From positions 1 through 64,000 of the forward strand of contig JAJZZE010000021.1 in NCBI GenBank assembly GCA_021797735.1: 64,000 bases of DNA, given 5' to 3'. Shown piece after piece: positions 6,597-64,000 of the stretch (positions are counted from its first letter, which is position 1; every line of letters begins with the position of its first letter). The notes under the pieces were generated by a model. It was given only the letters and a program-made list of their open reading frames with translations, did not search any database and was not told the origin of the DNA. The DNA is from Thermoplasmata archaeon (GTDB lineage Archaea; Thermoplasmatota; Thermoplasmata; Thermoplasmatales; Thermoplasmataceae). The position numbers were made by a program, and so were the translations under genes.

Positions 6597-6634
6597 CCTT
6601 TTAAGTTCTATTCTTTTTACTCTTGTGGTGTAAC

Positions 6635-44896: not shown

Positions 44897-44912
44897 AAAT
44901 AGTAAATAAGTA

Positions 44913-45991: not shown

Positions 45992-46010
45992 GATCGAGAC
46001 TGTGTGAAAA
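45992..46010. repeat. Left IS end: GATC target duplicate plus 15-bp inverted repeat
   Basis: GATC at 45992-45995 is the target-site copy; GAGACTGTGTGAAAA at 45996-46010 is the terminal inverted repeat, perfectly complementary to TTTTCACACAGTCTC at the right end. Because GATC is palindromic it could formally be counted in the repeat, but gene restoration requires one copy to be removed. Confidence 0.9.
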
Positions 46011-47439
46011 ATATTTGGAAACATCCCGTTGTTATTATGTGATATGAAATGTTTGTCATTTTTTGATTCATATAAAAATCAAAGTACCATTTATGGAGAT
46101 ATTATGCAATAGAAAGGGAAGACCCACATAAGGATTGCCTATTTTCATGTAATACCTGCATGTTTTCCGTCATATTCTCCTCTATTTTTATATTCACAAA
46201 TCTCTTCATGTTGTATGCAAGGGCAATCAACCCGAATTCTCCGGATACTTTCTTTTTACCCTTCAGGAGGGTATAACCGGAATTGAGTGCCCTCTTCACG
46301 GTTCCGAACGGATGTTCAACCAATGCCTTGCGTTTCTTCATCCTCCCGGAACCATTGAGGAGTATCTTCTTTCTATGTTCGTCTAACAGTGCCTGGTGTT
46401 CCCATCTGGAGATCTTCCTCCCGGTAACTGATTTTGTGCATCTTGATCTTACAGGGCAGGTTGTACACGCTGTGGTTGTGTATACAGCATATGTTTTATC
46501 TCCCCGTTTCAGCTTTCCGAAGAAATGCATCTCATTGCCCTGTGGACACATATATGTATCATTCTTTACATTGTACGTGAATTTGGATTCGTGGAATTCC
46601 GGAGCGGGTATGCCCTTCTTTCCGGATATTCCGTGCTTGGGTTCTGAGATGAATGCATCTATCTTCTCATCACTGAGTGTTTTTATGTTGTCTGCAGAGA
46701 AATATCCCTTGTCTGCAAGGGCCTCAAGATCATTGGTTTTCAGTATTTCCCTTGCATTCATGGCCATGGGAACCATAGAGGAACAATCGGTAGGATCATT
46801 GACCACGTCATAATCCACAATGAGGTGATATTTGTCATCCACGGATATCTGTGCGTTGTAACAGACATCTATTCCCGTTCTCGTCTTCATCAGTTTTGCA
46901 TCCGGGTCTGTCAATGAGATTTCATTCAGATCTTTCCCGTTCATCTTCTTCTGTATCTCCTTCAGTTCATTTATTCTCTTTCTCATGGTTTCAATCTTTT
47001 CCTTCATGTTTGTTATCTCTGGTTCATCATCCTCATTCTTATCGTTTTCCTCTATCTCCTTCAGATACTTATCGACCTTTTCATCCATCTCATTTATCCT
47101 TTTGTCCACATTATCCTTTGTATACGTTTTGTCTCTTGCATTCCATGCCTTGACCTTCGTTCCATCTATTGCAACGGTCTTCCCGCCCCATCCTTCAGCA
47201 CTGAGAACCTGAAACCCATTGCAGAAAGATCAAGGCTGTCAACAAAGGTATCCATGAATATGGCTGGATTGTCATTTTCAATATAGTTCTCAATCATGTC
47301 TGGAAGAAGTAATAGCTGTCTTCTGCCTGTACCGGAAACATATGATCCACTCATCACACCGTATATTACGGCTTCATAAATAAACCTATCCATTCATGAA
47401 GGCGTAAAACACAGGGTATTGTAATTTTCACACAGTCTC
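45996..47439 (-). mobile_element. IS1182-family insertion sequence, defective
   Basis: 1444 bases with 15-bp perfect terminal inverted repeats and a GATC (4-bp, palindromic) target duplication on both sides. It contains one transposase gene on the minus strand, broken by a frameshift and an internal deletion, so it cannot move by itself. The intact target gene on both sides and the clean ends show a recent insertion relative to other debris in the window. Confidence 0.92.
46102..47393 (-). pseudogene. IS1182-family transposase, frameshifted with internal deletion
   Basis: Two pieces. The N-terminal piece (47393-47166) reads SGTGRRQLLLLPDMIENYIE and IFMDTFVDSLDLSAMGFRFS up to GAGRP, then stops. 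The C-terminal piece (about 47170-46102) starts near TVAIDGTKVKAWNARD (first catalytic Asp) and runs through IVDYDVVNDPTDCSSM (second Asp), YMCPQGNEMHF, TTCPVRSRC and VEHPFGTVKRALN (Glu) to the end. Between GRP and TVAID about 70 residues normal for the family are missing, and the frame changes. The deletion probably happened at short GC-rich repeats there. Confidence 0.88.
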
Positions 47440-47443
47440 GATC
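47425..47443. repeat. Right IS end: 15-bp inverted repeat plus GATC target duplicate
   Basis: TTTTCACACAGTCTC at 47425-47439 mirrors the left end exactly; GATC at 47440-47443 is the second target copy. Confidence 0.9.
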
Positions 47444-48100
47444 ATGTATGGCATGATCCGTTTATCTGGATTTCAGGCAATAAAGAATATTCCCAACTTT
47501 TTATCGATGAAATTCCTACAGAATCTGTAATTATATCCTCGTGCGATTTATCTCTAGAACTTACCAAAAAATTTAACAATATCAATACTTTTATTGAAAA
47601 TATTATGGTACATGATGGAGCCATGGATGCTGTTAATATTGATGGTGTAAGGAAATTAACTACTAATGATGCATTGCAGTCCTTAAAATTGAATGTTGAT
47701 ATAAAAAACAGCAATAAAATTTTAACTCAACTAATAAGCAATGAGGAAAATTTTATCAGGGAAAGAATATGTTTCGGTAAATTCATTGATGAAAAACTCG
47801 TTTCACGCGGTGCTATAATGTCTATTGCCGGCAACTATGCATCTGTTGGTGCTTTTTATACAATAGAAACTGAAAGAAAAAAAGGCTATGCGTCGGATAT
47901 AATAAAAGCAACAATAATGGAAGCATCACGGCATTCAAAAAATGCATGCTTATTTGTCCGGAATAACAATAGCAATGCAATTAATCTTTATAAAAAACTG
48001 GGTTTTATATGTACAGGTCATGCATGGTTCCACGATATAGGTACAGGCCTGAGCCCATAATCAAGCACATCATTTAAATATAGCCATATATTGAACTATT

Positions 48101-49267
48101 ATGTTGCAGAGGGAAAATAACAGCTTTGCCATAAAATTCGGGAGATTATTTAATTCCCATGGAGAATTTGATGATGGTTACCTTCTTATCAGAAATGGCA
48201 TAATTGATGGAATATACAACAAAAATTATAGGAATTATGACCTGCTGGATTATTCTGGTAAAATCGTTGTACCTGGATTTATTGATATACACACACATGG
48301 TTATTATGGCATAGATGCAATGGATTCCAGCGAGGCTAGTATACATTATTGGGCGGGTAAGATTATGGAACACGGTGTAACCTCGTTTATACCTACAGGT
48401 GTTTCAGCCCCTTTTGATAAAATTAAAAATTTTTTAAAGAAAATAAACAATGTCATGAACAATTATAACTATAATGAGTCAAGAATACTTGGGGCAAGGC
48501 TCGAAGGGCCATATATTAGTATAAATAAAAAAGGTGCGCACAATAAAAATTTTATCAGGGAAATTAATATGGAAGAAATAAATAATATAGCAGGTAATTA
48601 TAATAATACATTGAAAATTATAGACATGGCACCTGAACTATATCAGTTTGATGATGCATTCAGTGTTTTAAGCAGGGCAAATATAATAGTATCTGCAGGT
48701 CATACCGATGCAGATTTTCTTACATCGTTTCATGCCTTTAAAATTGGTGTCGGACTCATAACTCATTTTTACAACGCAATGTCCCCATTTAATCACAGGA
48801 ATCCTGGCATGGTCGGTGCGGGTTTTTTATCCAAAAATGTTTTTATTGAGTTAATATGTGATCTGCATCATGTTTCAGGCGAGGCTATAAAGATTTTGGC
48901 TAATCAGGTGGGCTTATCCCGATTGATAATGGTAACGGATTCACTATCCATAGGCGATTCAGGCAAAATTTATGGTGTACTTGGTGATATGAATATAGAA
49001 CTTAAGGATAGTGTTGCATGGATTAGCGGTACCAATACAATTGCTGGCAGCATTTTAACGCCAGATAAGGCATTGAGGAATCTTGTCTCAATAGGAATAA
49101 GGCCAGTAAATGCAATTCCATCATTGACATCGATACCTGCAAATTTATTGGGATTATCTGATATAGGTGATATAATTCCCGGTAAAAAAGCTGATTTGTG
49201 TATACTTGATAATAATTTTAATGTGGATTCTACAATAATAGACGGGAAAATTTTGTATAGTAAATAA
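48101..49267 (+). CDS. nagA: N-acetylglucosamine-6-phosphate deacetylase
   Basis: 388 residues, amidohydrolase superfamily. Removes acetate from GlcNAc-6-phosphate to give glucosamine-6-phosphate. VPGFIDIHTHGYYGID contains the H-x-H start; RLEGPYISINKKGAHN holds the metal Glu; SAGHTDAD and THFYNAMSPFNHRNPGMVGA hold metal and substrate His; VTDSLS carries the catalytic Asp (VTDA in most homologues). TTTAAATA at 48073-48080 is a TATA box 25 bases before the ATG, so it has its own promoter downstream of the broken GNAT gene. The GlmD-like gene follows at 38 bases: product and next substrate agree. Confidence 0.95.
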   Translation: MLQRENNSFAIKFGRLFNSHGEFDDGYLLIRNGIIDGIYNKNYRNYDLLDYSGKIVVPGFIDIHTHGYYGIDAMDSSEASIHYWAGKIMEHGVTSFIPTGVSAPFDKIKNFLKKINNVMNNYNYNESRILGARLEGPYISINKKGAHNKNFIREINMEEINNIAGNYNNTLKIIDMAPELYQFDDAFSVLSRANIIVSAGHTDADFLTSFHAFKIGVGLITHFYNAMSPFNHRNPGMVGAGFLSKNVFIELICDLHHVSGEAIKILANQVGLSRLIMVTDSLSIGDSGKIYGVLGDMNIELKDSVAWISGTNTIAGSILTPDKALRNLVSIGIRPVNAIPSLTSIPANLLGLSDIGDIIPGKKADLCILDNNFNVDSTIIDGKILYSK

Positions 49268-49305: not shown

Positions 49306-50271
49306 ATGAATGATTCTAAGCATATAATGTTAGATGAAATTATAGAACAGAAAACTTTAATTAAAACTTTACCAGAAAAAATTGGAAATCAACTTTTAAA
49401 CATTATCGACAGGATTAAAACCTCAGATATAATATATATTACAGGCAGTGGAACAAGCTATCATGCATGCCTTATGCTGCAGTTGCTATTGAATAGGTTA
49501 AATATTAAATCTATTGCAATTCCAGCTTCAGAATTTAAATACTGGTTTAATGGTAAAATGTATAAAGAATTAATGCTAATTATATTTAGCCAATCCGGTG
49601 AAAGTATAGATGCAATCAATGCAATGAATTACGGTAAATCTATAAATTTGTATACGGTAGGTATAACTAATGAGGATAGGAGTAAACTGTATACAGACTC
49701 AGATTATGGAATATGTACATACGCAGGCCATGAAAAGGCTTTGGCTGCCACAAAAAGTCATATGGCACAGCTGATATGCAACCTTGAAATGTATTCAATG
49801 ATTGCAAATCAAAAAATTGATTATAACAGTATAGATTTTGATTATATTTTAAATAATCTTGAAAAAATAAGGCACATTGCATCGTTATTGCATAAATATG
49901 TAATATTCCTTGGTAGTGGATTGTTATATCCTGTAGCACTGGAAGCATCATTGAAAATGAAGGAGACATCGGTTACAATTTCAGAAGGTTACGCTGTCAG
50001 GGAATTCCTACACGGCCCAATGGAAGTACTCGATGCAGATTTTACAATAGTTTTTTTAGGTGAATATGAAGATAAAAATAAACTGAACAATTTTGGGTCA
50101 AACATAATAGAAATATCAAGCAACAGTAACGATTTTAATATAAAAGGCAATAATGAACTAACCTCTATATTTGAATACTTGATGTTTATTCAGTTACTTT
50201 CATATTTTAATGCATTAAATAAAGATCTTGACCCGGATCATCCGGATAAATTAAATAAAATTGTAAAATAA
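49306..50271 (+). CDS. SIS-domain glucosamine-6-phosphate deaminase (GlmD-like)
   Basis: 321 residues with two sugar-isomerase (SIS) domains related to the isomerase half of GlmS. IYITGSGTSYHACLML, LIIFSQSGESIDAINAM, TKSHMAQLIC, FLGSGLLYPVALEASLKMKE and REFLHGPMEVLD are the phosphosugar-binding blocks. The glutaminase half of GlmS is absent, as in the archaeal deaminase GlmD, which converts glucosamine-6-phosphate to fructose-6-phosphate and ammonia. Directly downstream of nagA, consistent with that step. Reverse (synthetic) action or another aminosugar cannot be excluded. Confidence 0.85.
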   Translation: MNDSKHIMLDEIIEQKTLIKTLPEKIGNQLLNIIDRIKTSDIIYITGSGTSYHACLMLQLLLNRLNIKSIAIPASEFKYWFNGKMYKELMLIIFSQSGESIDAINAMNYGKSINLYTVGITNEDRSKLYTDSDYGICTYAGHEKALAATKSHMAQLICNLEMYSMIANQKIDYNSIDFDYILNNLEKIRHIASLLHKYVIFLGSGLLYPVALEASLKMKETSVTISEGYAVREFLHGPMEVLDADFTIVFLGEYEDKNKLNNFGSNIIEISSNSNDFNIKGNNELTSIFEYLMFIQLLSYFNALNKDLDPDHPDKLNKIVK

Positions 50272-50515: not shown

Positions 50516-51910
50516 ATGCATAATGGTTATTTTATACAATCAGGCATAAGCGGAAATGATATAAACCAAATAAAAAATTTTCTTGGAAAGGTCAAGCCTT
50601 CTTCAATTATTCTGAATAAGAATAATTTTCATGGTTTAGTGGAATTAAAGAATATTATACACGAAATAAATCATTTTTATAAAATTGATCTGAATATTGA
50701 TATTCCTTATTTTGCCATAGACCAGGAAGGTGGCAATGTTGTACGTATTATGGATATTGATTATATACCCAGCAACTATGCACTTGGCAGGATCAACAAC
50801 TTAAATTTAACACGTTATGCTGCCATGGTAACCGGCTTTAAATTAAATTCATATGGGATAAAATGGAATCTGGCACCAGATCTTGATATATTAAAAAATA
50901 CAGAAAATAAAGTCATACTGGAAAGGTCGTTCTCAAAGGATGTAATTACGGTAGCGGCTCATGGTGCTGCATATATAAATGGTATTAATAAATCTGGGGT
51001 GGCAGCAACAGCAAAACATTTTCCGGGTCATGGGTATGTAGAAGCGGATTCACATGAGATACTGCCTTCGGACGATAGATCGTACCCTGAGATTGAAAAT
51101 GATATGTATCCATTTACCGTGGCAATTGCACATAATGTAAATGCCATAATGATGTCACATGTGCTATTTCCTGAAATAGATGACTATCCGGCATCATTAT
51201 CATCCAAATTTTATTCTATACTGAGGAAAGATTTAAAATTTGGTGGTGTTATTATTACCGATTCGGTTAACATGAATGCCATTTCAAAAAATTACAGCAT
51301 AAAGGAAATTGTGCACAATACCATAAGCAATGCCGATTTTATCGAATGTGTTGACACAGATATGGTGATGGAAATACTTGAATGTATGAACCATACAGTA
51401 ATTAATAATGCAGATCAAAAGGCAATGCGCATAAAAAACCTTATAATAAATAAAAAATTGGGTTATAAACCACCGGAACATTTAATGAGCATCATATCAT
51501 TTTTAAGTGTGGAATGGAAAAGAGTAAAAATATTGGACCCAGAAAAGGAAACATTACTCATTTTTATGCCTTATAACCTTACACGGGTTAATTCAAGCAT
51601 AAACAATAATAACAGGCTTATATCGGAATTAAAAAAGTATAAAATGAAATATAATATAATAGATTTCGATGGTTTTCAAAAATTTACTGAAAAGAATAAG
51701 CAGATTATATTTATAGGGCGTAATGAAGTTTTTCATAACAACTATAAAATTATAAATGAAAAATCGTTAAATAATGACTGTGTGTATGTATCAACCGGCA
51801 TAGACAATGATACAGGATTATTAAATGATGATATAGGATATATATCGACATACAGCACAAAAATAGATAATATAATCAATGCAATTTATAAAATATTTGG
51901 TTTTTCATAG
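50516..51910 (+). CDS. nagZ: Beta-N-acetylglucosaminidase, GH3 (NagZ-like)
   Basis: 464 residues. Removes non-reducing GlcNAc from GlcNAc-MurNAc(-peptide) fragments. IDQEGGNVVRI is the substrate-binding motif; KHFPGHGYVEADSHEILP is the flexible loop with the His-Asp acid/base pair specific to NagZ; GVIITDSVNMNAI contains the Asp nucleophile. A second domain of about 130 residues follows. No signal peptide is seen (MHNGYFIQSGISGNDIN), so it is cytoplasmic, unlike the secreted B. subtilis enzyme. Last gene of the rightward nagA operon, seven bases after the small unknown gene. Confidence 0.93.
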   Translation: MHNGYFIQSGISGNDINQIKNFLGKVKPSSIILNKNNFHGLVELKNIIHEINHFYKIDLNIDIPYFAIDQEGGNVVRIMDIDYIPSNYALGRINNLNLTRYAAMVTGFKLNSYGIKWNLAPDLDILKNTENKVILERSFSKDVITVAAHGAAYINGINKSGVAATAKHFPGHGYVEADSHEILPSDDRSYPEIENDMYPFTVAIAHNVNAIMMSHVLFPEIDDYPASLSSKFYSILRKDLKFGGVIITDSVNMNAISKNYSIKEIVHNTISNADFIECVDTDMVMEILECMNHTVINNADQKAMRIKNLIINKKLGYKPPEHLMSIISFLSVEWKRVKILDPEKETLLIFMPYNLTRVNSSINNNNRLISELKKYKMKYNIIDFDGFQKFTEKNKQIIFIGRNEVFHNNYKIINEKSLNNDCVYVSTGIDNDTGLLNDDIGYISTYSTKIDNIINAIYKIFGFS

Positions 51911-51916
51911 TCAATA

Positions 51917-52966
51917 TTAAAAATCCATAAATATTGTATTGTTTAATATTCTCCTGAAGTGCAAGATATCTCTATTTTTTTTTGTTGGATATACCCTATT
52001 TGTCAGCAATATTGAAAACATATTATTACTTTTGTTAACAACAATAGATGTACCGGTAAATCCAGTATGCCCGAAAGATCCATATGGTAAATAATCACCC
52101 ATAAAGTTTGAATATCCATAAGCCTCAGATGGAGTTTCATACTTTGGTGTTTTTATCATCCACCCGCAACCGAATACTCCATGTAAATATCCATTTTGCA
52201 AGGTTGTAAATATATCAACCGTTTTTGTTTTCAATATCTCACCATGTATGAATTTGTCAACAAATATTATTAAATCGTTTATATCGCTGAATAAACCTGC
52301 ATGGCCAGCAACCCCACCAAGGTAATATGAATTTTCATCGTGAACCTTTCCCCTTAATATACCGCGTTTTGTTTTTTCTGTTGGTGCTATTAGATCATTG
52401 TATTCCGGCTTATATGATATATTTTTAAGGTTCAACGGTCTGATAATTTCGTTAAGTGCAATATTATCAAGAGTGTCATTATACAAGTATTCTATTATAA
52501 ACCCTAGCAAAATAAAATTTAAATCGCTATAAATTTCTTTTTTGTATATCTCTCCATTATATAACATATCAATTGTTTTCAGATACGATTTTTTATTTCT
52601 ACCAGTTAGATATAAAGGATATGTAGGTACAAATCCTGTACTGTGTGTTATTAATGATTTAATGGTAATATCATCTATATTTGAGTTTTTTATAAATCCG
52701 ATGGTCTTTAAATTATCCTCCATGCTTATTTTACCATTTTCAAGTAATTTGCCTATCAACGTAGTAATTATAATGGGTTTGGTTAACGATGCAAGGTCAT
52801 ATATTGTATCATTTGTATATGTGAAATTCAGCTTGTCTATTGAACCAAATGAATTTTTATAGATTATTTTACGGTTTTTAACTATGCCAAGGGTAAGTCC
52901 ATATGTAGCTTTTCTATAATTTTCACTTATAATTTTGTTTATTCTGTATAAAAAATCATTAAACAT
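51917..52966 (-). CDS. AmiE-like N-acetylmuramyl-L-alanine amidase, beta-lactamase fold
   Basis: 349 residues, class C beta-lactamase/serine hydrolase fold. YDLASLTKPI holds the S-x-x-K nucleophile pair; IYSDLNFILLG is the Y-x-N-like region; FGHTGFTGTS the third motif. VHDENSYYLGGVAGHAGLFSDINDL is a strong hallmark of the YbbE/AmiE group, which in B. subtilis releases the peptide from MurNAc next to nagZ and namZ. No signal peptide. Second gene of a leftward pair with the MurK-like kinase (30-base gap), ends six bases from nagZ's stop. Esterase action is the alternative. Confidence 0.8.
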   Translation of the reverse strand: MFNDFLYRINKIISENYRKATYGLTLGIVKNRKIIYKNSFGSIDKLNFTYTNDTIYDLASLTKPIIITTLIGKLLENGKISMEDNLKTIGFIKNSNIDDITIKSLITHSTGFVPTYPLYLTGRNKKSYLKTIDMLYNGEIYKKEIYSDLNFILLGFIIEYLYNDTLDNIALNEIIRPLNLKNISYKPEYNDLIAPTEKTKRGILRGKVHDENSYYLGGVAGHAGLFSDINDLIIFVDKFIHGEILKTKTVDIFTTLQNGYLHGVFGCGWMIKTPKYETPSEAYGYSNFMGDYLPYGSFGHTGFTGTSIVVNKSNNMFSILLTNRVYPTKKNRDILHFRRILNNTIFMDF

Positions 52967-52996: not shown

Positions 52997-54016
52997 TTAT
53001 TTAAAATATAGGTATTTATGCCTGGCATTTTCCGGAAGTTTATTTATATGATAATCTATTTGGTTTATAATATAATTTATATCATTTTTATTAATATTTA
53101 CATCATTATTATAAAGTGATAAAAGTATGGAACCAGCAACAGCATGATAACCGTATATTGGTTTTATAAATTCAGCATTGTCAATTTCGTTTAAAATATT
53201 TTCCTTCAATGCATTCCAGTAGAAATCTCCGGATCTATAAACACCACCATATCCACTGATAATAACATTTTCGAATTTTAACCTGCGATTAAGAGATAAT
53301 CCGCATTTCGCAGCCTCTTCTGCTGCATGTAAAATTATATCTTTTGCTATAATATCATTTTTTCTGGCTAAATCCGATACTATAACAGCCAGACCAGCAA
53401 TTTCACGTACATTAATTCTGCTTTTATAAATAATGTTTACAAGGTCTCTACTATTTTTAATATTAAAATTTTCCCTTATCCTATAATTCAGATTGGATTC
53501 GCTCGTATCCCTTAAATCATCAATCTGTGCGAATTCCTGCAGCGCCATTTTACCTATGTAAAAACCACCACCCTCATCACCTATAAGCCAGCCCCATCCA
53601 CTTGACCTTTCAAACACATTATTAAATTTGCCATAGGCAATCATTCCTGTTCCAGGAGCTATAACTATACCATTATCATTTAAAAATCTTGAAAAATATC
53701 CAGCTTCGCCATCATTATACAATTTATAATTTTTATTGCCCGAAATTTTTTTTACTATACTTTTTACTATTTCTGTGGATTTATTTGAATCCTTTACGCC
53801 TGCCACGGCAAATATATATTCTAATATATTATCTTCATCCATAGCGGAAATTTTTAATGCATCATTTATAGCCTTCCTTATGTTATAAATAGCCCTATAG
53901 ATACCTATATTTCTATAATTTGATGGCCCGCTTACACCTATTGATATAATATTTTTATCATCATATAATGCTGCTACAGTTTTCGTTGCTCCACCATCTA
54001 TAGCAATTCTTATCAT
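52997..54016 (-). CDS. N-acetylmuramate/N-acetylglucosamine kinase (BadF/BadG family, MurK-like)
   Basis: 339 residues, ASKHA actin-like ATPase fold. IAIDGGATKTVAALYD is the first phosphate loop, APGTGMIAYGKFN the second, SGWGWLIGDEGGGFYIGKMA the sugar-binding region, and VIISGYGGVYRSG the adenosine motif. This is the family of mammalian NAGK and clostridial MurK, which phosphorylates both GlcNAc and MurNAc at position 6. As archaea lack the PTS (MurP), such a kinase is what the pathway would need. Divergent from namZ by 76 bases. Confidence 0.85.
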   Translation of the reverse strand: MIRIAIDGGATKTVAALYDDKNIISIGVSGPSNYRNIGIYRAIYNIRKAINDALKISAMDEDNILEYIFAVAGVKDSNKSTEIVKSIVKKISGNKNYKLYNDGEAGYFSRFLNDNGIVIAPGTGMIAYGKFNNVFERSSGWGWLIGDEGGGFYIGKMALQEFAQIDDLRDTSESNLNYRIRENFNIKNSRDLVNIIYKSRINVREIAGLAVIVSDLARKNDIIAKDIILHAAEEAAKCGLSLNRRLKFENVIISGYGGVYRSGDFYWNALKENILNEIDNAEFIKPIYGYHAVAGSILLSLYNNDVNINKNDINYIINQIDYHINKLPENARHKYLYFK

Positions 54017-54092
54017 TGTAGGTATAAAGCTATAGTATATTTAAAAGTTGCATTTATAAAAAAAATAAAATATATGTATTATATATTATTTA
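54017..54092. promoter_or_regulatory. Divergent promoter region of the kinase and namZ genes
   Basis: A 76-base strongly AT-rich region must serve both directions. Rightwards AAAATATATGTATT lies about 25 bases before the namZ ATG; leftwards TTTAAATATACTATAGC on the minus strand lies about 25-30 bases before the kinase ATG. No ribosome site precedes either start, so both look leaderless and could be controlled together. Confidence 0.4.
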
Positions 54093-55274
54093 ATGTTAAA
54101 AATCGGACTCGATCATATAGAAGATATCAAAAATTTAGGTACAGGGAAAAAGGTAGGGTTAATAACAAACCATACGGGTTTAAATAGCAATTTTGTTAGT
54201 AATATAACAATATTTAAAAGTTTATTTCAAAACTCATTTTTAAAAATTTTTACACCGGAACACGGTCTATACGGGGCTGTTCAGGCTGGCGCAGATATCA
54301 GATCATATTACGATAATGACATTAAAATGAAAATTGTAAGTTTATACGGTAATGACAATAAGGATATTGACCCTGATAGTTCAATGAGGAAAAACGATAC
54401 ATCATATTTAAAAAAGAGCATGCCTTTTGATGAACTTAATGATATAGACATAATATTTTTTGATATACAGGATATAGGTACGAGGATATATACTTATATT
54501 TCTACTATGATATTATCCATGAATAAATGCAGTAAAATGGATAAAGAATTTGTAATACTGGATAGGCCAAATCCAATTGGCAGAAGCATTGAAGGCCCGA
54601 TTTTAATGTCATCGTTCAGATCGTTTATAGGCATAACAGAAATACCACTGAGGCATGGTATGACTGTAGGTGAAATCGGAAATTTTTATAATGATTTTTT
54701 TTTAAATTCATCTTTGAATTTGAAGGTAATAAAAATGGATAACTGGGATAAAAATTATTATAATTATATGCCATGGATTATGCCATCACCCAATATGCCC
54801 ACCTTAAATTCAGCAATTGTATATCCCGGCCAGGTAATGTTTGAAGGGTTAAATATATCAGAAGGCAGGGGAACAACCAAACCATTTGAAATAATTGCAT
54901 CTCCATGGATAAACTCCTATAAACTTGCAAGAGAAATGAATTCATTAAACCTTGATGGCATAAAATTTGTTGAAATAAAACTTGTACCGCAATTTTCAAA
55001 ATACAAATGTGAACTCTGTAATGGTGTATACCTGTGTATAACAGATTTTAATAAATATAAACCATATTACACATCATTAAAGTTAATAGAAAAATTGCTT
55101 GAATTATCGCACAATGATATCATTTTTTATGATAAATATTTTGATATGGTAAACGGCACGGATAAAGTTAGGAAAGCATTAATCGAAGGAAAAAATATTG
55201 ATGAACTTATTGGCAATATTGAAATATCCATTAATCGCTTTAAAGATAAAATCAGCAATATATTATTATATTAA
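54093..55274 (+). CDS. namZ: Exo-beta-N-acetylmuramidase NamZ-like (DUF1343, GH171)
   Basis: 393 residues. The DUF1343 hallmarks are complete: GKKVGLITNHTGLN, FTPEHGLYGAVQAGAD with the catalytic Glu, FDIQDIGTRIYTYISTM, LDRPNPIGRSIEGPIL, PLRHGMTVGEIG and FEGLNISEGRGTTKPFE. The family member YbbC of B. subtilis removes MurNAc from the non-reducing end of murein chains. No signal peptide. Ends with a 9-base overlap with the convergent DUF218 gene. Together with nagZ it could take a sugar chain apart completely. Confidence 0.93.
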   Translation: MLKIGLDHIEDIKNLGTGKKVGLITNHTGLNSNFVSNITIFKSLFQNSFLKIFTPEHGLYGAVQAGADIRSYYDNDIKMKIVSLYGNDNKDIDPDSSMRKNDTSYLKKSMPFDELNDIDIIFFDIQDIGTRIYTYISTMILSMNKCSKMDKEFVILDRPNPIGRSIEGPILMSSFRSFIGITEIPLRHGMTVGEIGNFYNDFFLNSSLNLKVIKMDNWDKNYYNYMPWIMPSPNMPTLNSAIVYPGQVMFEGLNISEGRGTTKPFEIIASPWINSYKLAREMNSLNLDGIKFVEIKLVPQFSKYKCELCNGVYLCITDFNKYKPYYTSLKLIEKLLELSHNDIIFYDKYFDMVNGTDKVRKALIEGKNIDELIGNIEISINRFKDKISNILLY

Positions 55275-55805
55275 ATTATTATATTTTTCAAGATTTTTTA
55301 TCCTAATATCAATACTATTATCTAAGTTTTCATCAATAAATTTTTTATCCATAAGCCATTTTATTCTTTCAATTCCAGCGTAATCGGCATTCCATTTGGA
55401 ACAATTTTTGCATTCTATTTCAATTCCCTTTAACAGTGAAGTAAATATATTGCATGCTCTTTTCATATGGAAACATGATGTTACCAGTTTTAATTTTTTT
55501 GTTTTTATGTTAATATCATATAATAGTTCCATGGTATAAATTGCATTTCCAAGCGTATTCATGGATCTGGTCTCCATCAATATTCTATATTTATCAATGC
55601 CATTTTTAATTGCGTACTCTTTCATGATTTCTGCCTCGGATTTATTACATTTGCTATTTGTATAACCACCACTGAATATTATATAATAATTGTTATCGGG
55701 CAAATTTTTTATTAGATCATCAACCCGGCTCCTCTGCATATCTGAGATGGTACAATCGTCATTGATTTTACATCCCAGCAAAACATAAAAATCTCCATCT
55801 ACCAT
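55266..55805 (-). CDS. DUF218 (YdcF/SanA-like) protein
   Basis: 179 residues. DFYVLLGCKINDD, IIFSGGYTNSKCNKSEAEIMKEYA and ILMETRSMNTLGNAIYTMEL with LVTSCFHMKRACNIF match the DUF218 alpha/beta fold. Family members such as SanA and ElyC in enterobacteria affect envelope integrity and peptidoglycan; biochemical function is unknown. No membrane helix here. The placement in the salvage region, between namZ and murQ, is suggestive. Confidence 0.82.
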   Translation of the reverse strand: MVDGDFYVLLGCKINDDCTISDMQRSRVDDLIKNLPDNNYYIIFSGGYTNSKCNKSEAEIMKEYAIKNGIDKYRILMETRSMNTLGNAIYTMELLYDINIKTKKLKLVTSCFHMKRACNIFTSLLKGIEIECKNCSKWNADYAGIERIKWLMDKKFIDENLDNSIDIRIKNLEKYNNLI

Positions 55806-55946
55806 TTAAAACATTATCAAATTGCAATTTATATATTTTTTGTTTTATATAATTTTTAATTTTATAATGACCTGAAATCCAAACACTTATCAATGGTTTT
55901 AAAATTTATATCAAAAAAATTATATTATTGATGTTACTGGTTAATC

Positions 55947-56768
55947 ATGAAAGAGACCGAAAAAATCGATCAAAAAACTATAGGAATTTCAAAAATGCCC
56001 ATAAATAGAATGGTTAACACGATCATAGATGAGTCGTATAAGTCATTTAACGCCGTTAAAAATGCGGGTGAGAAGATCTCACATCTTACTGAAATTATTT
56101 ATAATAAAGCAGTTAATGGTGGCAGGATAATATATATTGGTGCTGGAACCAGCGGAAGGATCGCCACACAGGACGTAATAGAACTATATCCAACTTATGG
56201 TATAGGTAATAACATTTTTGATTATATTATGGTTGGAGGGAAAAAAGCGTTATATAAATCTGTTGAAAATTCAGAGGATAATACAGAACAGGCTATTATT
56301 GATCTGAAAAGAAAATATTTAAATCAAAATGATATCATTATAGGTATAAGTGCATCAGGTCAAACTCCATATGTTTTGAGCGCATTAAAATATGGTAAGC
56401 TATTGAATGTATATACAGTTGGCATAGTAAATAATAACGGTACTGAAATAGAGAAAATAGCAGATTACACGATAATATTAAATACAGGCCCAGAAGTTAT
56501 TCAGGGTTCTACAAGGATGAATGCGGGTACATCTCAGAAAATATTATTAAATACTTTGAGTACTTCAATAGCCATATTACTGGGCAAAACTCTTGATAAT
56601 GCAATGGGCTCAATGAAATCAAATTTTAATAAAAAATTACGTGAAAGGGCAATTAACATTATTGTCCAAAATTTTAACATCAGCAATAAAGATGCAAAAA
56701 ATATACTTTCCAAGCATAATTATGATATAGAAAGTGCAATAGGGGATATAAAAGGAAATCACCAATGA
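55947..56768 (+). CDS. murQ: N-acetylmuramic acid 6-phosphate etherase
   Basis: 273 residues, SIS fold. Splits the lactyl ether of MurNAc-6-phosphate to GlcNAc-6-phosphate and D-lactate. IYIGAGTSGRIATQDVIELYPTYG corresponds to the catalytic region of bacterial MurQ with the conserved Glu; SVENSEDN carries the second Glu; GISASGQTPYVLSAL is the phosphate loop; QGSTRMNAGTSQKILLN is the strongest family hallmark. A UBA-like C-terminal helix pair (SNKDAKNILSKHNYDIESAI) is also as in bacteria. About 25 residues shorter than usual at the N-terminus and loops. A rare enzyme in archaea. Confidence 0.94.
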   Translation: MKETEKIDQKTIGISKMPINRMVNTIIDESYKSFNAVKNAGEKISHLTEIIYNKAVNGGRIIYIGAGTSGRIATQDVIELYPTYGIGNNIFDYIMVGGKKALYKSVENSEDNTEQAIIDLKRKYLNQNDIIIGISASGQTPYVLSALKYGKLLNVYTVGIVNNNGTEIEKIADYTIILNTGPEVIQGSTRMNAGTSQKILLNTLSTSIAILLGKTLDNAMGSMKSNFNKKLRERAINIIVQNFNISNKDAKNILSKHNYDIESAIGDIKGNHQ

Positions 56769-57106
56769 ATCAGGGGAAGCTGGGGAGCCCCATGAAAGAT
56801 GAATATGCCGGAGTCAAACAGGGTGGCTTGGATAATGGCAATATAATTTTTACAAAAATTTTCAGAAAAACCCAAATAAAAGGGTCTCGGGTGGATATTT
56901 GTTCACGAAACTCCATCGAAACTTAAGTTATACTATTTTTTAATTTCCTATTTTTAACCTCACCCTGGGTTTAGCATTCCTATCTATATTTATATAATCC
57001 TTAAATAGGAATTCTATTCGAGGTAACATAACTTATAAACCATACAAAAAGATTAAATATCCAGATTTCATAAACATTATTGATATTATTGAATCCCTAT
57101 TTAGTT
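56769..57106. other. Region between murQ and the ABC transporter genes
   Basis: An open frame of 53 codons (56765-56926) starts in an ATGA overlap with the murQ stop (NQGKLGSPMKDEYAGVKQG) but shows no recognisable protein and has GC-richer, atypical composition; it may be the eroded end of a lost gene. The rest holds the transporter promoter: TTAAATAT at 57053-57060, and an 8-base inverted repeat upstream. Confidence 0.4.
56976..57012. repeat. Inverted repeat upstream of the transporter operon
   Basis: ATTCCTAT (56976-56983) and ATAGGAAT (57005-57012) are perfect complements 21 bases apart, with TATATTTATATAATCC between them. They may be regulator half-sites around a promoter, or a chance repeat in AT-rich DNA. 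Confidence 0.4.
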
Positions 57107-58066
57107 ATGAGAAAGGTTATACAAGATGTTGTGCTGGTTATATTCGTGGTTTTGATACTGTATATAGTATTTAGACTAATGCCAGGAAGCCCTGTTGACT
57201 TATTTTTACACGGTTTAAAGCATCCTACAGCCGCCGATAAAGCTAGAATAGAAAAGGAGTTGGGTTTGTCCGGTGGTAAATTTTCATTAACCGGCTTTTT
57301 CATATATTTAAAGGATATGTTCACTTTCAATTTTGGAACGGATTACTATGATGGCGAATCAGTATTATTTAAAATAAGTCAAGCCCTCCCTTACACATTA
57401 TTATTATTCGGTGTAGCAGCTGTTTTATCATTTATAATAGGTTTACCTCTGGGTATATATACATCATTTTTAAGAGGTAAGAGATCAGAAGGTGGGCTAA
57501 TATCTACCGCTACATTATTAAATTCAATTCCATTCTTTGTGCTAGCAATTATAGTGTGGGTTTATTTGTCTGCCTATTATCACATTTTTCCAATAACTGC
57601 GGTTTTTCCATTAAGTTATTTAACTCATCCAACATTAAGTAGTATTAAAACTGTGGCATATGATTATGCCATGCCAATTTTAACATTAATAGTAATAGAG
57701 TCGGCAGGTCATTTATTAACAATGAGAGCCGCAATGGTCTCTGTGCTGGGCGAAGATTTTATCACAACAGCAAAAGCTAAAGGCGTAAGTAATAAAAATA
57801 TTATGCTGCACCATGCCGCAAGAAATGCAATGGTTCCAATGTCAACTAGAATGGCACTTGAATTCGCATTTTTAATGAGTGGGGCAGTAATAGTGGAGGT
57901 TATTTTCGGTATTCATGGAATGGGTACAGAAATATATAATGCAACTCTGAAGGAAGATTATCCATTTACAGAGGGTGCATTATTTATAATATCTTTAATA
58001 GTAATATTTACATATTCCATAGTTGATTTTATACATGCATGGATAGATCCAAGAATAAAGGTGTGA
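57107..58066 (+). CDS. ABC transporter permease, DppB/OppB type
   Basis: About 319 residues, six helices. The N-terminus MRKVIQDVVLVIFVVLILYI with IVFRLMPGSPVDLF is typical of DppB proteins. The EAA coupling helix reads TTAKAKGVSNKNIMLHHAARN near residue 225, contacting the ATPase subunit. The ATG at 57107 is chosen by comparison with the family; an in-frame TTG at 57080, where transcription is predicted to begin, would add nine residues. First gene of a four-gene operon that ends at 62668. Confidence 0.93.
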   Translation: MRKVIQDVVLVIFVVLILYIVFRLMPGSPVDLFLHGLKHPTAADKARIEKELGLSGGKFSLTGFFIYLKDMFTFNFGTDYYDGESVLFKISQALPYTLLLFGVAAVLSFIIGLPLGIYTSFLRGKRSEGGLISTATLLNSIPFFVLAIIVWVYLSAYYHIFPITAVFPLSYLTHPTLSSIKTVAYDYAMPILTLIVIESAGHLLTMRAAMVSVLGEDFITTAKAKGVSNKNIMLHHAARNAMVPMSTRMALEFAFLMSGAVIVEVIFGIHGMGTEIYNATLKEDYPFTEGALFIISLIVIFTYSIVDFIHAWIDPRIKV

Positions 58067-58069
58067 TTT

Positions 58070-60214
58070 ATGGATAAAAAAAGTTATAGAAAGGAAAGGT
58101 TGAATTTTCGTTTATACAATTTAAAAAAGAGCTGGAGATTGTTTTATAGTTCAAAATATGGTAAAATTGGATTTTACATACTTGTGGTTTTTGTTATATT
58201 GTCTCTGATTTCACCATTGATAATACAGCACAGTAACTCATTAACATATATAGCACCGGAAGGTGATTTTACAGCTGCACATAAACAGTTCTCATCCACT
58301 TTGCCATCTTCAAATACTGCCAATTATATAGACTCAACAACCTCCGGGTCACGTGATCTTGGTACATATTTAATATATACACTATCATCATCCGGGGTAT
58401 ATGGTGTTGATACGTGTAATCACCACACATATAATTTGGCTAGCATAAACCATGCATATAATTTAACAGCATTCACCGCCTATAATTCCGGAGAAAAAGA
58501 CACATACTCATATGTTATAACTGCCAATTCGTCGGAATTATTTATAGGTAAAACAACATGGTCTAGCAGCATATGTGGTCACGGTACACCTACCCTGTCT
58601 AATAAATCTATTTCAATGAAAAATGTTGTGGCCGCACCATTCACAAGTGCTTTCTCGTACCATTCTACGGAAATTACTTCAACCTTTGAATATGATTTAA
58701 ATTACCACACATCAACAATTTATCCTGTTTATATATACACAATTACAAAAAATGCTACAGGTTACTATTTAAATGAATATTATATGTATAATTTACTACA
58801 CACTTCAAATCATAAGCCAATTTTCTCACAGAAATTGCCCTATAACATAAAGCCTGGAAATGATGAATATTATGCTGCAGGTTTAACCTCCAAAGCAGAG
58901 GTTTTAGTATCTCAGGGTAGTCATATAACAGGCTATTATACGGATGGAACTATAGGCACAAACAAGAATTTATCATCAAAAATAAATGAAGTGTATATAC
59001 CAAGTTCATATCAATATTTATCTAATAATTATAATCAAATATTTGTCAGTACTAATCATACCGTCTATGGTATTTATCCCTTGAACAACACAAAAACCGT
59101 AATATTTAATACTAACAATAAACAGACAATAAATTATATAGCTAGTACCAGTGGTTCTACGGGCTTTCCATCGTATTTCCTTGTAAGTCTTTCAAATAAA
59201 ACATTATCTGTATTAAATAATCCAAATAGTATAGTGAGATATATGAAATTGCCCGTTGATATAACCGGTATATCACGCTATTCTGGCAATTTCCTTCTTT
59301 ACAATAACCACGATTATTTATACCTTCCAGGTGATTACGTATCTTCAGGTTCCTATATATGGACATTAAGTATATCAAAGGTTACGTCCACGCCAATATT
59401 TTTACTTAATCCGGTATCAGCAAGGGAATCGATATCAATTTCATATGGTAATACGATTTCTGTATACTCAACAAGCGGTGAGGATTTAAACCCAATGCCC
59501 CCAACATTCCACACAATAAGCGGTAATATATTCCCTCTAGGAACGACAGTCAGTGGAAATGATGTGTGGTCAGAATTTATTGGTGGTTTTCCAGTAGATC
59601 TGGAAATAGGCCTTGCAGTGGGCATAGGCATTTTAATAATCTCACTGGTTATAGGAATGTTAATAGGCTATTTTGCAGGTATAGTAAGTTCCGGTTTTGA
59701 AACATTTGCACTTGCAATATATCTTATACCGAATTTGCCATTGCTTATAGTTGTAGCAGCAATTGTTGGTCCATCACTTACTGGTATAATAATGGTACTA
59801 ACCCTTCTCAGCTGGCCATTTGCGGCTTTTACACTTATAGGAATCATCAGAAGTCTTAAAACCAGGTCTTTTGTTGATGCAGCAAAGGTCTCTGGTGCAA
59901 GTACATTACAGATACTGAAAAATCATATGTTAAAAAATGTTACGCCAATATTAGTCTATTTAACCTCAATAAACATTGGTGGTGCGGTTGCTGCAGTATC
60001 AACGCTGCAGGTACTAGGTATAGCTCCTTTAACGGTGCCCACATGGGGCGGGATGCTTGACGGTTTCTACAGTGATGCCTTTGATCTTGCAATAGCACCA
60101 TGGTGGTTCATACCTCCTATAATAGCAATAACGTTATTTATAATGGCGTTTATATTTGTATCTAGGGGAATGGATAATGTTGTAAACCCAAGAGTAGCGG
60201 GTGGTCGCAGATGA
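58070..60214 (+). CDS. ABC transporter permease, DppC/OppC type with large extracellular insertion
   Basis: 714 residues, more than twice the usual 300. One helix at about 30-53 (KIGFYILVVFVILSLISPLII) is followed by roughly 450 residues of Ser/Thr/Tyr/Asn-rich beta-type sequence (about 55-500) and then the normal permease domain from about 504 (DLEIGLAVGIGILIISLVIG) with the EAA motif DAAKVSGASTLQILKNHMLKN near 605. In ordinary DppC the loop after helix 1 is about 40 residues. The extra region would lie outside the cell and could act as a receptor dock or propeller-like domain. Three bases after the DppB gene; overlaps the ATPase gene by four. Confidence 0.9.
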   Translation: MDKKSYRKERLNFRLYNLKKSWRLFYSSKYGKIGFYILVVFVILSLISPLIIQHSNSLTYIAPEGDFTAAHKQFSSTLPSSNTANYIDSTTSGSRDLGTYLIYTLSSSGVYGVDTCNHHTYNLASINHAYNLTAFTAYNSGEKDTYSYVITANSSELFIGKTTWSSSICGHGTPTLSNKSISMKNVVAAPFTSAFSYHSTEITSTFEYDLNYHTSTIYPVYIYTITKNATGYYLNEYYMYNLLHTSNHKPIFSQKLPYNIKPGNDEYYAAGLTSKAEVLVSQGSHITGYYTDGTIGTNKNLSSKINEVYIPSSYQYLSNNYNQIFVSTNHTVYGIYPLNNTKTVIFNTNNKQTINYIASTSGSTGFPSYFLVSLSNKTLSVLNNPNSIVRYMKLPVDITGISRYSGNFLLYNNHDYLYLPGDYVSSGSYIWTLSISKVTSTPIFLLNPVSARESISISYGNTISVYSTSGEDLNPMPPTFHTISGNIFPLGTTVSGNDVWSEFIGGFPVDLEIGLAVGIGILIISLVIGMLIGYFAGIVSSGFETFALAIYLIPNLPLLIVVAAIVGPSLTGIIMVLTLLSWPFAAFTLIGIIRSLKTRSFVDAAKVSGASTLQILKNHMLKNVTPILVYLTSINIGGAVAAVSTLQVLGIAPLTVPTWGGMLDGFYSDAFDLAIAPWWFIPPIIAITLFIMAFIFVSRGMDNVVNPRVAGGRR

Positions 60215-62340
60215 TTGAAACAGAAAATATTGATATTGGAAATTTAAATAAACCCTTGCTAAAAATAGATGATTTATCAGTTACATTTAAAACATTTGAA
60301 GGTATGGTTCATGCACTTACAAATATAAATTTAACGTTAAGTGAAGGAGAAACATTGGGTATACTTGGTGAATCTGGGTCGGGCAAAAGTACAATGGCCA
60401 TGGCAATAATGTCTTTGCTTTCGGCAAATGCTATTATAAATGGAGGTATAACTTTTAAGGATGACAAATATATATACAGTGAAAATAAAAAAATAAACAG
60501 AAAAAGTAAAAAGATTCTGGATGATAAATTAAGAAATATGAGATGGAAAAATATATCTATGGTTTTCCAGGGTGCCATGAACTCGTTTAACCCCGTTTAT
60601 ACTATAAGAAAACAGCTTGCGGAGGTATTCAAAATACATACAGATTATACTGATAATGAAATAGATAAACACTTGGTTGAAACTATAAAATTGGCAGGTT
60701 TGAACCCATCTGTTCTTAGCTCATATCCACATGAATTATCAGGTGGTATGAAACAGAGAGCTGTAATAGCTATGGCACTGGCGCTTAAGCCAGATATAGT
60801 AATAGCAGATGAACCAACAACAGGACTGGATGTAATAACACAGGCAGAAATCATATCACAGCTAAAGAAATTAAAAAAGGAAAACAAAATAAAATCTATG
60901 ATAATTATTTCACATGATATCGGTGTTGTATCACAATTAGCAGATCATATAGCAGTTTTATATGCGGGTAAGATAATGGAATATGGTACTTCGCAGGATA
61001 TTTACTTAAATTCAAAAAATCCATACTCGGTAGAATTATTAAAAAGTTACCCAAGCATCATAAACGGTAAGAAACACGTTACAGGAATTCCGGGCACGTT
61101 ACCGGACCCTATAAATTTAACCAGTGGTTGCAGATTTCATGAAAGATGCTACTTTGCAAAGGAACAGTGCAAACAGAACGAACCCGAATTAATGAAAGTA
61201 GGAAAGGAACATTACAGTGCCTGCTTTTTTGCTGATTCCCTAGAACCAAGCAAGTTAAACCCACAGGAGGAAAATGAAAGGTATAATATTCAGGATGAAA
61301 AAATAATTGAAACAAAGGAATTAACAAAGTATTTTGATTTAAAAGCAGGAAATGCAGGGATGCTTTTCTCCAGGAAACATAGATTTGTAAGGGCTGTAGA
61401 TCACGTGAATATTTATTTGAGGAAAGGTGAAATATTAGGTATAGTTGGCGAATCTGGATCAGGGAAAACAACATTTGGAAGAACATTAATAAAATTATAC
61501 GATGCAACTTCCGGTAACATATACTACTACTTAGATAAGGGTGTAATAGATATAACAAAAATCAGCAGAAAGGACAAATCAGTGGAGGAAGAGTATCGGG
61601 AATTTAAAAGAAATATACAGATGATATTCCAGGATCCATATGATTCACTAAACCCTAAAATGACCGTTTTTGATATTGTATCTGAACCTATAATAGCACA
61701 TAAGGCAACTAATAATCCACTAGAAATGGCAGATATGGTTCGTGAAGTTTTAAAAAAAGTTAATCTTAATCCGCCAGACAATTATCTCTATAGATTTCCA
61801 CATGAATTATCGGGTGGTGAAAGACAGCGCGTAGCAACTGCAAGGGCTTTAGTATTAAAAACAAAATTTATTGTTGCAGACGAACCAACCTCCATGCTAG
61901 ATGTTTCCCTGAGGGCAGGATTTATGAATATGTTAAATAATATTAGGGAGAAAGAGCAATTATCTGTGGTATATATATCGCATGATATCGCCTCTGTATA
62001 TTATTTATCAGATAGAATTGCCGTTATGTATCTTGGTGTTATGGTTGAATATGGAAATGCTGATGAAATCATTCAGAGGCCATTGCATCCCTATACAAAA
62101 GCTTTAATTAAAGCAGTGCCATTGCCAACACCTGATTGGGACCCAGGGAATATAGAAATTATAGGAGAGATTGGAAATGCAATAAACGTTGAAAAAGGCT
62201 GCAGATTTTATAGCAGGTGCATATATCATCAGGGCATATGTAAAAATACACCACCACCGGTAAAAGATGTAAATGGGCATTCATACGTTTGCCATTTTAC
62301 GCAGGATGAATTGATGGGAATAAAAAATGGGGTTAAATAA
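60211..62340 (+). CDS. Fused DppD-DppF-type ABC ATPase (two nucleotide-binding domains)
   Basis: 709 residues containing both ATPases of an oligopeptide-type importer in one chain. First domain: ILGESGSGKSTMAM, MVFQGAMNSFNPVY, ELSGGMKQRAVIAMALALKP, IADEPTTGLDV. Second domain from about 370: IVGESGSGKTTFGRT, MIFQDPYDSLNPK, ELSGGERQRVATARAL, VADEPTSMLDVS. Each ends with an oligopeptide-transporter C-terminal segment with conserved Cys (GCRFHERCYFAKEQC and GCRFYSRCIYHQGIC plus a later Cys), possibly binding a metal or Fe-S cluster. Overlaps the permease gene by four bases. Confidence 0.95.
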   Translation: MIETENIDIGNLNKPLLKIDDLSVTFKTFEGMVHALTNINLTLSEGETLGILGESGSGKSTMAMAIMSLLSANAIINGGITFKDDKYIYSENKKINRKSKKILDDKLRNMRWKNISMVFQGAMNSFNPVYTIRKQLAEVFKIHTDYTDNEIDKHLVETIKLAGLNPSVLSSYPHELSGGMKQRAVIAMALALKPDIVIADEPTTGLDVITQAEIISQLKKLKKENKIKSMIIISHDIGVVSQLADHIAVLYAGKIMEYGTSQDIYLNSKNPYSVELLKSYPSIINGKKHVTGIPGTLPDPINLTSGCRFHERCYFAKEQCKQNEPELMKVGKEHYSACFFADSLEPSKLNPQEENERYNIQDEKIIETKELTKYFDLKAGNAGMLFSRKHRFVRAVDHVNIYLRKGEILGIVGESGSGKTTFGRTLIKLYDATSGNIYYYLDKGVIDITKISRKDKSVEEEYREFKRNIQMIFQDPYDSLNPKMTVFDIVSEPIIAHKATNNPLEMADMVREVLKKVNLNPPDNYLYRFPHELSGGERQRVATARALVLKTKFIVADEPTSMLDVSLRAGFMNMLNNIREKEQLSVVYISHDIASVYYLSDRIAVMYLGVMVEYGNADEIIQRPLHPYTKALIKAVPLPTPDWDPGNIEIIGEIGNAINVEKGCRFYSRCIYHQGICKNTPPPVKDVNGHSYVCHFTQDELMGIKNGVK

Positions 62341-62803: not shown

Positions 62804-64000
62804 ATGAAGATAGATTATTATAAGGATAAAAAGTTAATAAAGATATTGATAGTAATAGCTGCCATCCTTGTATCTGCAATGTTTGTTGGAGAAGCTTTTC
62901 AGGGTTCCATTAATACTGTAAGCTCACCAACTTCAACACCATCAAATATACAAACTGCAGCAAATGTAAATAGCATACCCAGTAATGTTTTTTCAACACA
63001 TAATTATACGGGTGGAACATATAAGGCGGCCGAAGTTGGAAATTTAAACCATCTCAATCCATTTGAGGCCAGCACACTTTGTGATTTTCTACTTTTAGAT
63101 GAGGTATACGACTCACCGTTTAATTATTTCCCGAATGGGACAATAGGTCCATGGGTAGCAACATCAGTCAGCGGGAATAATATCGCAAGTCACCATATAA
63201 GAACAATAGACCCATTAACAGGTGCTAATGTTTCAGTTAATTATATCTACACGTTACATCTAAGATCCAATGTAAAATGGCAGGACTGGACATCATCAAA
63301 TTCCAAGAACACATACACATATTCTGCAATACAGAAATTCACAGCGGAAAACGGAAAATCAATAACAGTAAACAATACTAAGATCTATGATACTTTATTA
63401 GGTAAAAATATAACATCAACTACAGCAGATAGAACAATGAAAACCTATTACATACAATCCGTAGATTTAATACTTTCATGGGAAATAATGGCAGAGTCGA
63501 CAGACTTTTCAACAGAGTACCCAGGCATAGTTAATATGGTACCTGTAAACAACACAACACTGGAATATTATATGTCTGCACCAACCCCATTATTTAATGA
63601 AACCGCCTTAGATACATTAATATTACCATACCATATATGGTCTGCACACGATTATTCATCAACCCCTGGATTATGGAATTACAATCCAAGTGCACCGGCA
63701 TCGGGATCCTATAACGCATGGAATATGGGATACAATCCTACCACAGGCTATGCATCAGGTTTAGTCGGTTCAGGTCCATTTATGATGTACTCTGGATTTG
63801 GGCAGCCAAACGGGGCATGGATATCCAGTGATTACTGGCAATTATATGTAAATCCAGATTATTTCACACAGTATGTACCGAGTTTAGCACAGTACACACC
63901 AAGAATAGATAGTATATATGTGTCAATATACACATCATATTCCGCAGCAGTTGCAGCAGAGGCATCTGGATCGGCATACTCAATAATAGGCGTTGCACCA
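62804..64000 (+). CDS. Solute-binding protein of Opp/Dpp-type ABC transporter (3' end outside window)
   Basis: 399 codons, open to the window edge. Signal or anchor helix at about 13-32 (IKILIVIAAILVSAMFVGEAF). The rest is the start of a family-5 binding domain and is a close paralogue of the protein at 39626: shared blocks include NVKWQD-TSSN, GYNPTTGYA-GLVG-GP-MMY and SDYWQLYVNP. It directly follows the importer genes and is the likely main receptor of that transporter. The C-terminal stalk and anchor are not seen here. Confidence 0.92.
   Translation, partial: MKIDYYKDKKLIKILIVIAAILVSAMFVGEAFQGSINTVSSPTSTPSNIQTAANVNSIPSNVFSTHNYTGGTYKAAEVGNLNHLNPFEASTLCDFLLLDEVYDSPFNYFPNGTIGPWVATSVSGNNIASHHIRTIDPLTGANVSVNYIYTLHLRSNVKWQDWTSSNSKNTYTYSAIQKFTAENGKSITVNNTKIYDTLLGKNITSTTADRTMKTYYIQSVDLILSWEIMAESTDFSTEYPGIVNMVPVNNTTLEYYMSAPTPLFNETALDTLILPYHIWSAHDYSSTPGLWNYNPSAPASGSYNAWNMGYNPTTGYASGLVGSGPFMMYSGFGQPNGAWISSDYWQLYVNPDYFTQYVPSLAQYTPRIDSIYVSIYTSYSAAVAAEASGSAYSIIGVAP

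Follow-up and report, generated by a model that had tools for sequence, protein, structure and literature searches.

The first 64,000 nucleotides of contig JAJZZE010000021.1 (assembly GCA_021797735.1, Thermoplasmata archaeon), hereafter the window, contain a cluster of nine enzymes directed at N-acetylmuramic acid (MurNAc), peptidoglycan or amino sugars, encoded within 13 kb and recognized by Pfam and NCBIfam searches. The catalytic motifs are intact in these window copies. A preliminary description had singled out two genes, a BadF-type kinase and the MurNAc-6-phosphate etherase MurQ, as a two-gene route without a phosphotransferase system (PTS). Both genes are real: the open reading frames (ORFs) of the kinase (52997-54016, minus strand, 339 residues) and of MurQ (55947-56768, plus strand, 273 residues) are intact in the ORF list of the window, match Pfam and NCBIfam models and are flanked by archaeal genes. 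What the two-gene route overlooked is the gene for the exo-beta-N-acetylmuramidase NamZ (54093-55274, plus strand), which sits between them, and the rest of the cluster; by its predicted enzymes, the unit is a whole muropeptide-catabolic cluster at ~43.8-56.8 kb and not two genes. The absence of a PTS stands as far as the cluster goes: the ORFs of the window's cluster and the annotated conserved cluster genes of relatives include neither a MurP PTS nor MurR, the rest of the genome not having been searched.

MurQ scores 287.6 bits against the NCBIfam model NF003915 (cut-off 168) and falls short of the stricter equivalog cut-off of TIGR00274 (225 vs 302). Across an alignment of 17 archaeal and bacterial MurQs, E79 and E110, both acidic, do not vary; their spacing of 31 residues is the same as that of the catalytic pair of Escherichia coli MurQ, E83 and E114. 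The window protein is thus best read as a MurQ, predicted to cleave MurNAc-6-phosphate. NamZ has both its N- and C-terminal domains over the Pfam cut-offs (NamZ_N, 215 bits; NamZ_C, 147 bits), and an EGRGTT-type motif is present in 16/16 sequences. On the sugar side, the N-acetylglucosamine (GlcNAc)-6-phosphate deacetylase NagA (48101-49267, plus strand; TIGR00221, 273 bits vs cut-off 226; PDB match 1o12) retains its metal-ligand motifs, and is followed by a SIS-domain glucosamine-6-phosphate deaminase of the GlmD/NagB-II type without the glutaminase domain (49306-50271, plus strand; PDB matches 2dec and 1j5x). The GH3 beta-N-acetylglucosaminidase NagZ (50516-51910, plus strand; Pfam Glyco_hydro_3, E=2.6e-55) has no signal peptide, carries the KHFPGHG, DSH and TD motifs and finds NagZ structures among its PDB matches.

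The peptide side is represented by three enzymes. First, a class-C beta-lactamase-fold serine hydrolase resembling AmiE and PBP4B/YfeW (51917-52966, minus strand; Pfam Beta-lactamase; PBP4B model NF002968, E=3.5e-34), with SLTK (in DLASLTKP), YSDLN and HTG motifs, is predicted to be a MurNAc-L-Ala amidase. Second, an NlpC/P60 endopeptidase with an SH3 domain and no signal peptide (44913-45635, minus strand; Pfam NLPC_P60, E=8e-23, and SH3_16) matches the dipeptidyl-peptidase VI structure 3npf, retains the Cys and His motifs and is a predicted gamma-D-Glu-meso-diaminopimelate endopeptidase. Third, an L-Ala-D/L-Glu dipeptide epimerase-like protein of the enolase superfamily (43826-44923, minus strand; NCBIfam A_G_epim, E=9.7e-68) has the dipeptide epimerase 3jva as its best PDB match (235 bits) and the KxK, D, E, D and K motifs. 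A DUF218 (YdcF-like) protein (55266-55805, minus strand) is kept in the cluster of several relatives. The GNAT acetyltransferase gene of the cluster is interrupted by an insertion sequence (IS) element at 45991-47444, with perfect terminal inverted repeats and a DDE transposase (46102-47109, minus strand), and its 3' part is left at 47605-48060 (plus strand). On contig C25 of the same genome (L116, 9116-11709), a class-A beta-lactamase-like serine hydrolase (named by eye), an S13 carboxypeptidase and an NlpC/P60 protein lie together; this second NlpC/P60 is 98% identical to that of the window, and part of the peptide branch is on another contig.

The kinase matches Pfam BcrAD_BadFG (E=5.6e-33) and NCBIfam NagK_SO3507 (E=1.7e-22, yet below the model cut-off), and carries the DGGxTKT, catalytic Asp, GTG and GDEG motifs of the BadF fold. 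Its likening to clostridial MurK in the preliminary description does not hold, as the two are not orthologous. The nearest solved relative is the Sulfolobus tokodaii hexokinase 2e2n (113 bits), followed by 8zo3, a MurNAc/GlcNAc kinase (78 bits, ~26% identity). In the tree, the cluster kinases form a separate clade of 16 (support 100/99) beside a paralogous BadF kinase clade of the same order; the window kinase falls in an archaeal clade (99/97), and both the cluster and the paralogous clade stand apart from 8zo3, the bacterial branches being long. With the caveat of these long branches, tree and PDB scores rule out a clostridial-type MurK co-acquired with MurQ, and a native archaeal sugar kinase seems to have been the source from which the kinase was recruited. 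Two BadF paralogues are encoded elsewhere in the genome, on contigs C32 and C39, that on C32 adjoining a second SIS deaminase. In Tannerella MurK, the loop S133-P134-L135 accommodates the lactyl ether (PMC10465942); the window kinase has S139-G140-W141 at this position, keeping the small residues. Ser at the S139 position is found in 15/16 clade members and Gly in 15/15 paralogues. Two basic residues near the pocket also separate the clades, R35 (15/16 clade members vs 2/15 paralogues) and K75 (14/16 vs 0/15). The residue before the catalytic Asp is Asn, the same as in the clostridial-type MurK 8zo3, and Thr (T94) in Tannerella MurK. Judging from these residues, the pocket is compatible with MurNAc; the kinase likely uses MurNAc, and use of GlcNAc, as by clostridial MurK, is equally possible.

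None of the cluster enzymes has an N-terminal hydrophobic segment by a hydropathy test (not a trained predictor). This argues for import followed by breakdown, so that wall fragments are probably taken up and then degraded in the cytoplasm. To the right of MurQ, the window encodes a peptide-type ATP-binding cassette (ABC) transporter (57080-62340, plus strand) consisting of DppB, DppC with a large insert and a fused DppD-DppF, and then the start of a large SBP_bac_5 solute-binding protein (62804-64000, plus strand), which continues beyond the window. To the left of the epimerase lies a second SBP_bac_5 protein of 1320 residues (39626-43588, plus strand), with a homologue inside the cluster of the relative G027. 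The binding proteins do have the hydrophobic segment, including that at the right end of the window. The transporter is a possible importer. Its DppC-like permease (58070-60214) has 714 residues vs ~300 in relatives, with ~400 extra residues before the permease domain.

We compared 81 genomes, namely that of the window and 80 relatives. MurQ is over the model cut-off (NF003915) in 16/81 genomes; within the genus, it is present only in the genome of the window and in G004 (2/10 genomes). In the other 15 MurQ-positive relatives, which belong to several families, the cluster genes are also grouped as far as contig ends allow, with reshuffled gene order and changing strands. NamZ occurs in 14 genomes, all of them (14/14) MurQ-positive (Fisher p 7e-14 over the 81 genomes, which are related and not independent trials). 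NlpC/P60 is found in 16/16 MurQ-positive genomes and 3 others (p 3e-14), and an S13 D-Ala-D-Ala carboxypeptidase in 16/16 and 2 others (p 5e-15), both over the 81 genomes and uncorrected for shared ancestry. AnmK is present in 8 genomes, 8/8 MurQ-positive, and the cluster-type kinase in 14/16 MurQ-positive genomes and 3 others. Extra cluster members in relatives are the S13 carboxypeptidase, AnmK, a diaminopimelate/ornithine-decarboxylase family protein, an M19 dipeptidase and an S15 peptidase, and some families have a flavin (FAD) dehydrogenase of the D-lactate type with an adjacent Fe-S partner. An S13-NlpC pair without MurQ was seen in G007.

A further conserved protein of ~400 residues, here called c16, is present and full-length in 11 genomes, all MurQ-positive (for example L055 4841-6160, L060 2914-4140 and L063 3955-5100). 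It carries a hydrophobic segment at the N terminus and a membrane segment at the C terminus, and it matches no Pfam family significantly, with weak hits to Amidase_6 and NlpC/P60 below the cut-offs. Its Asp-Cys and His motifs (DC...GHA) are invariant, and it is a candidate extracellular, papain-like wall hydrolase.

In the tree, a single clade (16 rows, support 100/99) holds the MurQs of the order; it broadly tracks families and is apart from 10 bacterial MurQs, a small and plasmid-derived sample. Such a clade fits one old acquisition followed by many losses. A second, more bacterial-like MurQ is present in G010 and G375. The latter, of the same class and another family, has a fuller version of the system in one stretch (L090 2817-14526): a NagB-like deaminase, AnmK, two MurQs, an AmiE-like protein, NagA, NagZ, a BadF kinase, NlpC/P60, an epimerase and a MupG 6-phospho-muramidase. 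MurQ is also present in three further genomes of the phylum. On a short contig of a phylum-level relative (G292, L093 1-9179), NamZ, MurQ, NagA, a BadF kinase, an AmiE-like protein and a secreted wall-amidase-like protein were observed; this contig could be mis-binned.

Considering gene content, intact motifs, conservation, co-occurrence, the missing N-terminal hydrophobic segments and the lack of a penicillin-binding protein (PBP) transpeptidase, we think it highly probable that the cluster encodes a pathway by which a Thermoplasmatales archaeon, itself without peptidoglycan, scavenges muropeptides. All the reactions, the direction in which the pathway is used, the identity of the importer and the substrate of the kinase are inferred from these observations, as follows. 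Bacterial wall fragments would enter the cell, probably via a peptide-type ABC transporter. Once they are in the cytoplasm, NlpC/P60 would cut the stem peptide, the AmiE/PBP4B-like hydrolase would split the lactyl-L-Ala bond, and NagZ and NamZ would act on the chain ends, freeing GlcNAc and MurNAc. Phosphorylation of MurNAc, and probably also of GlcNAc, at C6 would then fall to the BadF kinase; MurQ would convert MurNAc-6-phosphate to GlcNAc-6-phosphate and D-lactate; NagA and the SIS deaminase would yield fructose-6-phosphate, acetate and ammonia. The epimerase would turn L-Ala-D-Glu into a peptidase-cleavable form. The cluster would thus cover the steps from muropeptide to fructose-6-phosphate, short peptides and amino acids.

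Several observations weigh against this proposal. The kinase is closer to the Sulfolobus hexokinase than to MurK, and it has Asn at the position of MurK T94, a replacement argued to strain lactyl binding (PMC10465942). The clusters of G027 and G043 hold a different BadF kinase. The epimerase and PBP4B models both score under their equivalog cut-offs, and neither AnmK nor the papain-like c16 was found in the genome of the window. The window transporter is related only distantly to those in the clusters of relatives (30-40% identical, those of G004 and G017 being 52-65% identical to each other), which makes the importer uncertain in this species. The FAD dehydrogenase occurs in MurQ-negative genomes too, so that its presence in the cluster is no more than suggestive, and a D-lactate dehydrogenase was ruled out as a diagnostic member.

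Could the cluster serve general GlcNAc/chitobiose or N-glycan salvage instead, with the kinase as a GlcNAc or hexose kinase and with MurQ, NamZ and the peptide enzymes marginal or relict? NagA, the deaminase and the BadF kinase would be sufficient for GlcNAc, and the kinase, nearest to the Sulfolobus hexokinase, matches a NagK model. However, the MurQ and NamZ families act on MurNAc-containing substrates, their motifs are intact, and 14-16 genomes retain them alongside NlpC/P60, S13 and AnmK, while the BadF kinase on C32, with its neighbouring deaminase, is a better candidate for plain amino-sugar use; we regard such salvage as unlikely. It is still less likely that muropeptides or D-amino-acid peptides are removed as toxins and not as nutrients. 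Such peptides come from co-living bacteria, and serine hydrolases, NlpC/P60 and carboxypeptidases could detoxify them, but full conversion to fructose-6-phosphate with a deacetylase, a deaminase, an epimerase and binding-protein transport is what catabolism needs.

The same enzymes recycle the wall in bacteria, so one also has to consider that the archaeon might recycle a wall polymer of its own. No PBP transpeptidase was found in 8 cluster genomes, each of which encodes one Mur-ligase-like protein, that of the window genome having the FolC-type HVAGTNGKGS motif. Own peptidoglycan synthesis is ruled out on these grounds, Thermoplasmatales are mostly described as wall-deficient (PMC5155288), and we hold recycling to be very improbable; with no PBP and a FolC-like sole Mur ligase, MurQ and NamZ most likely serve scavenging of the bacterial wall.

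As for the host, the archaeal ether-lipid enzymes GGGP synthase (PcrB) and UbiA prenyltransferase are encoded on the same contig at 37130-38782, 1 kb to the left of the first gene for a binding protein. Right of the cluster are archaeal genes named by eye; among them are those for an ATP-dependent DNA ligase and for the beta subunit of a proteasome, the latter matching 1pma, the Thermoplasma acidophilum proteasome, best among solved structures (307 bits; next different protein, 176). These neighbours mark the host as archaeal and, most likely, as a member of the Thermoplasmatales. Bacterial contamination or a mis-binned contig, suggested by the typically bacterial nature of every enzyme family and by the lack of a 16S gene in the bin, is ruled out for practical purposes by the archaeal genes on both sides, by matching composition (cluster GC 32.6% vs 32.8% in housekeeping genes; codon-usage correlation 0.97) and by the same cluster in the single-contig genomes G017 and G020. 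Elsewhere in the window (6623-10060), an intein bearing a LAGLIDADG domain splits a ribonucleotide reductase large subunit.

The peptidoglycan of bacteria represents a large pool of nutrients, for which the characterised catabolic routes are bacterial. Judging from the gene set, dead or lysed bacteria may serve some archaea as food; if true, a complete route in wall-less acidophilic archaea would mean that nutrients pass between domains at the cell-wall level. The pathway seems to be assembled across domains, from bacterial-type enzymes and an apparently home-grown kinase. A bolder possibility, which we offer only tentatively and consider rather doubtful, is that wall-less archaea are partly consumers of bacteria, in which c16 would open walls, muropeptides would be imported whole, and the MurNAc kinase, instead of arriving with the bacterial genes, would have arisen within the archaea out of a sugar kinase native to them.

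The MurNAc operon of Bacillus subtilis (ybb), murQ-murR-murP-amiE-nagZ-namZ, also encodes MurQ, NagZ, NamZ and AmiE, the counterpart of the PBP4B-like serine hydrolase, together. Unlike it, the archaeal cluster has a kinase in place of the PTS, contains no MurR, and includes NagA, the deaminase, NlpC/P60 and the epimerase. B. subtilis NagZ, AmiE and NamZ are secreted, whereas the archaeal enzymes have no signal peptides and their host has no peptidoglycan. MurK of Clostridium acetobutylicum and Tannerella forsythia, characterised as MurNAc/GlcNAc kinases (PMC10465942), share with the window kinase the sugar-kinase fold, the catalytic Asp, the small residues of the lactyl loop, a MurQ partner and the absence of a PTS, but the window kinase belongs to a separate archaeal clade. 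The S. tokodaii hexokinase 2e2n differs in lacking the R35, K75 and S139 signature and in having His, not Asn, before the catalytic Asp. A Bradyrhizobium plasmid (L144) with a nagA-BadF-murQ-SIS cluster likewise combines kinase, MurQ, NagA and deaminase without a PTS; it is bacterial and, unlike the archaeal cluster, has no NamZ, NagZ or peptide enzymes nearby. A kinase replacing the PTS was thus already known from MurK (PMC10465942) and from this plasmid.

Among archaea, NamZ-NagZ-AnmK clusters with peptide ABC transporters were observed on haloarchaeal plasmids (Natrononativus and Halorussus; L097 10001-14007 and L098 6820-14811). They share NamZ, NagZ and the transporter with the archaeal cluster described here, and L098 also a serine hydrolase, but carry AnmK and, within the coordinates given, lack MurQ, which makes them a second archaeal version; RefSeq annotates their genes singly. 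Secreted peptidoglycan hydrolases have been reported in archaea, with Thermoplasmatota among the carriers and the question of scavenging left open (PMC12352652). That study treats secreted killing enzymes, with MurQ and intracellular catabolism unmentioned; if our proposal is true, its question becomes directly testable, namely whether archaea eat bacterial walls or only attack them. We found no description of a MurQ, NamZ, muropeptide or muramic-acid pathway in archaea in the open-licence literature, a prior description elsewhere being possible, and no mention of such a pathway in the literature checked on Thermoplasmatales and other acidophilic archaea; a complete muropeptide pathway in archaea thus appears to be undescribed in the open literature. 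The enzyme families are all known, and a kinase with MurQ in place of a PTS is known in bacteria; the archaeal setting is new.

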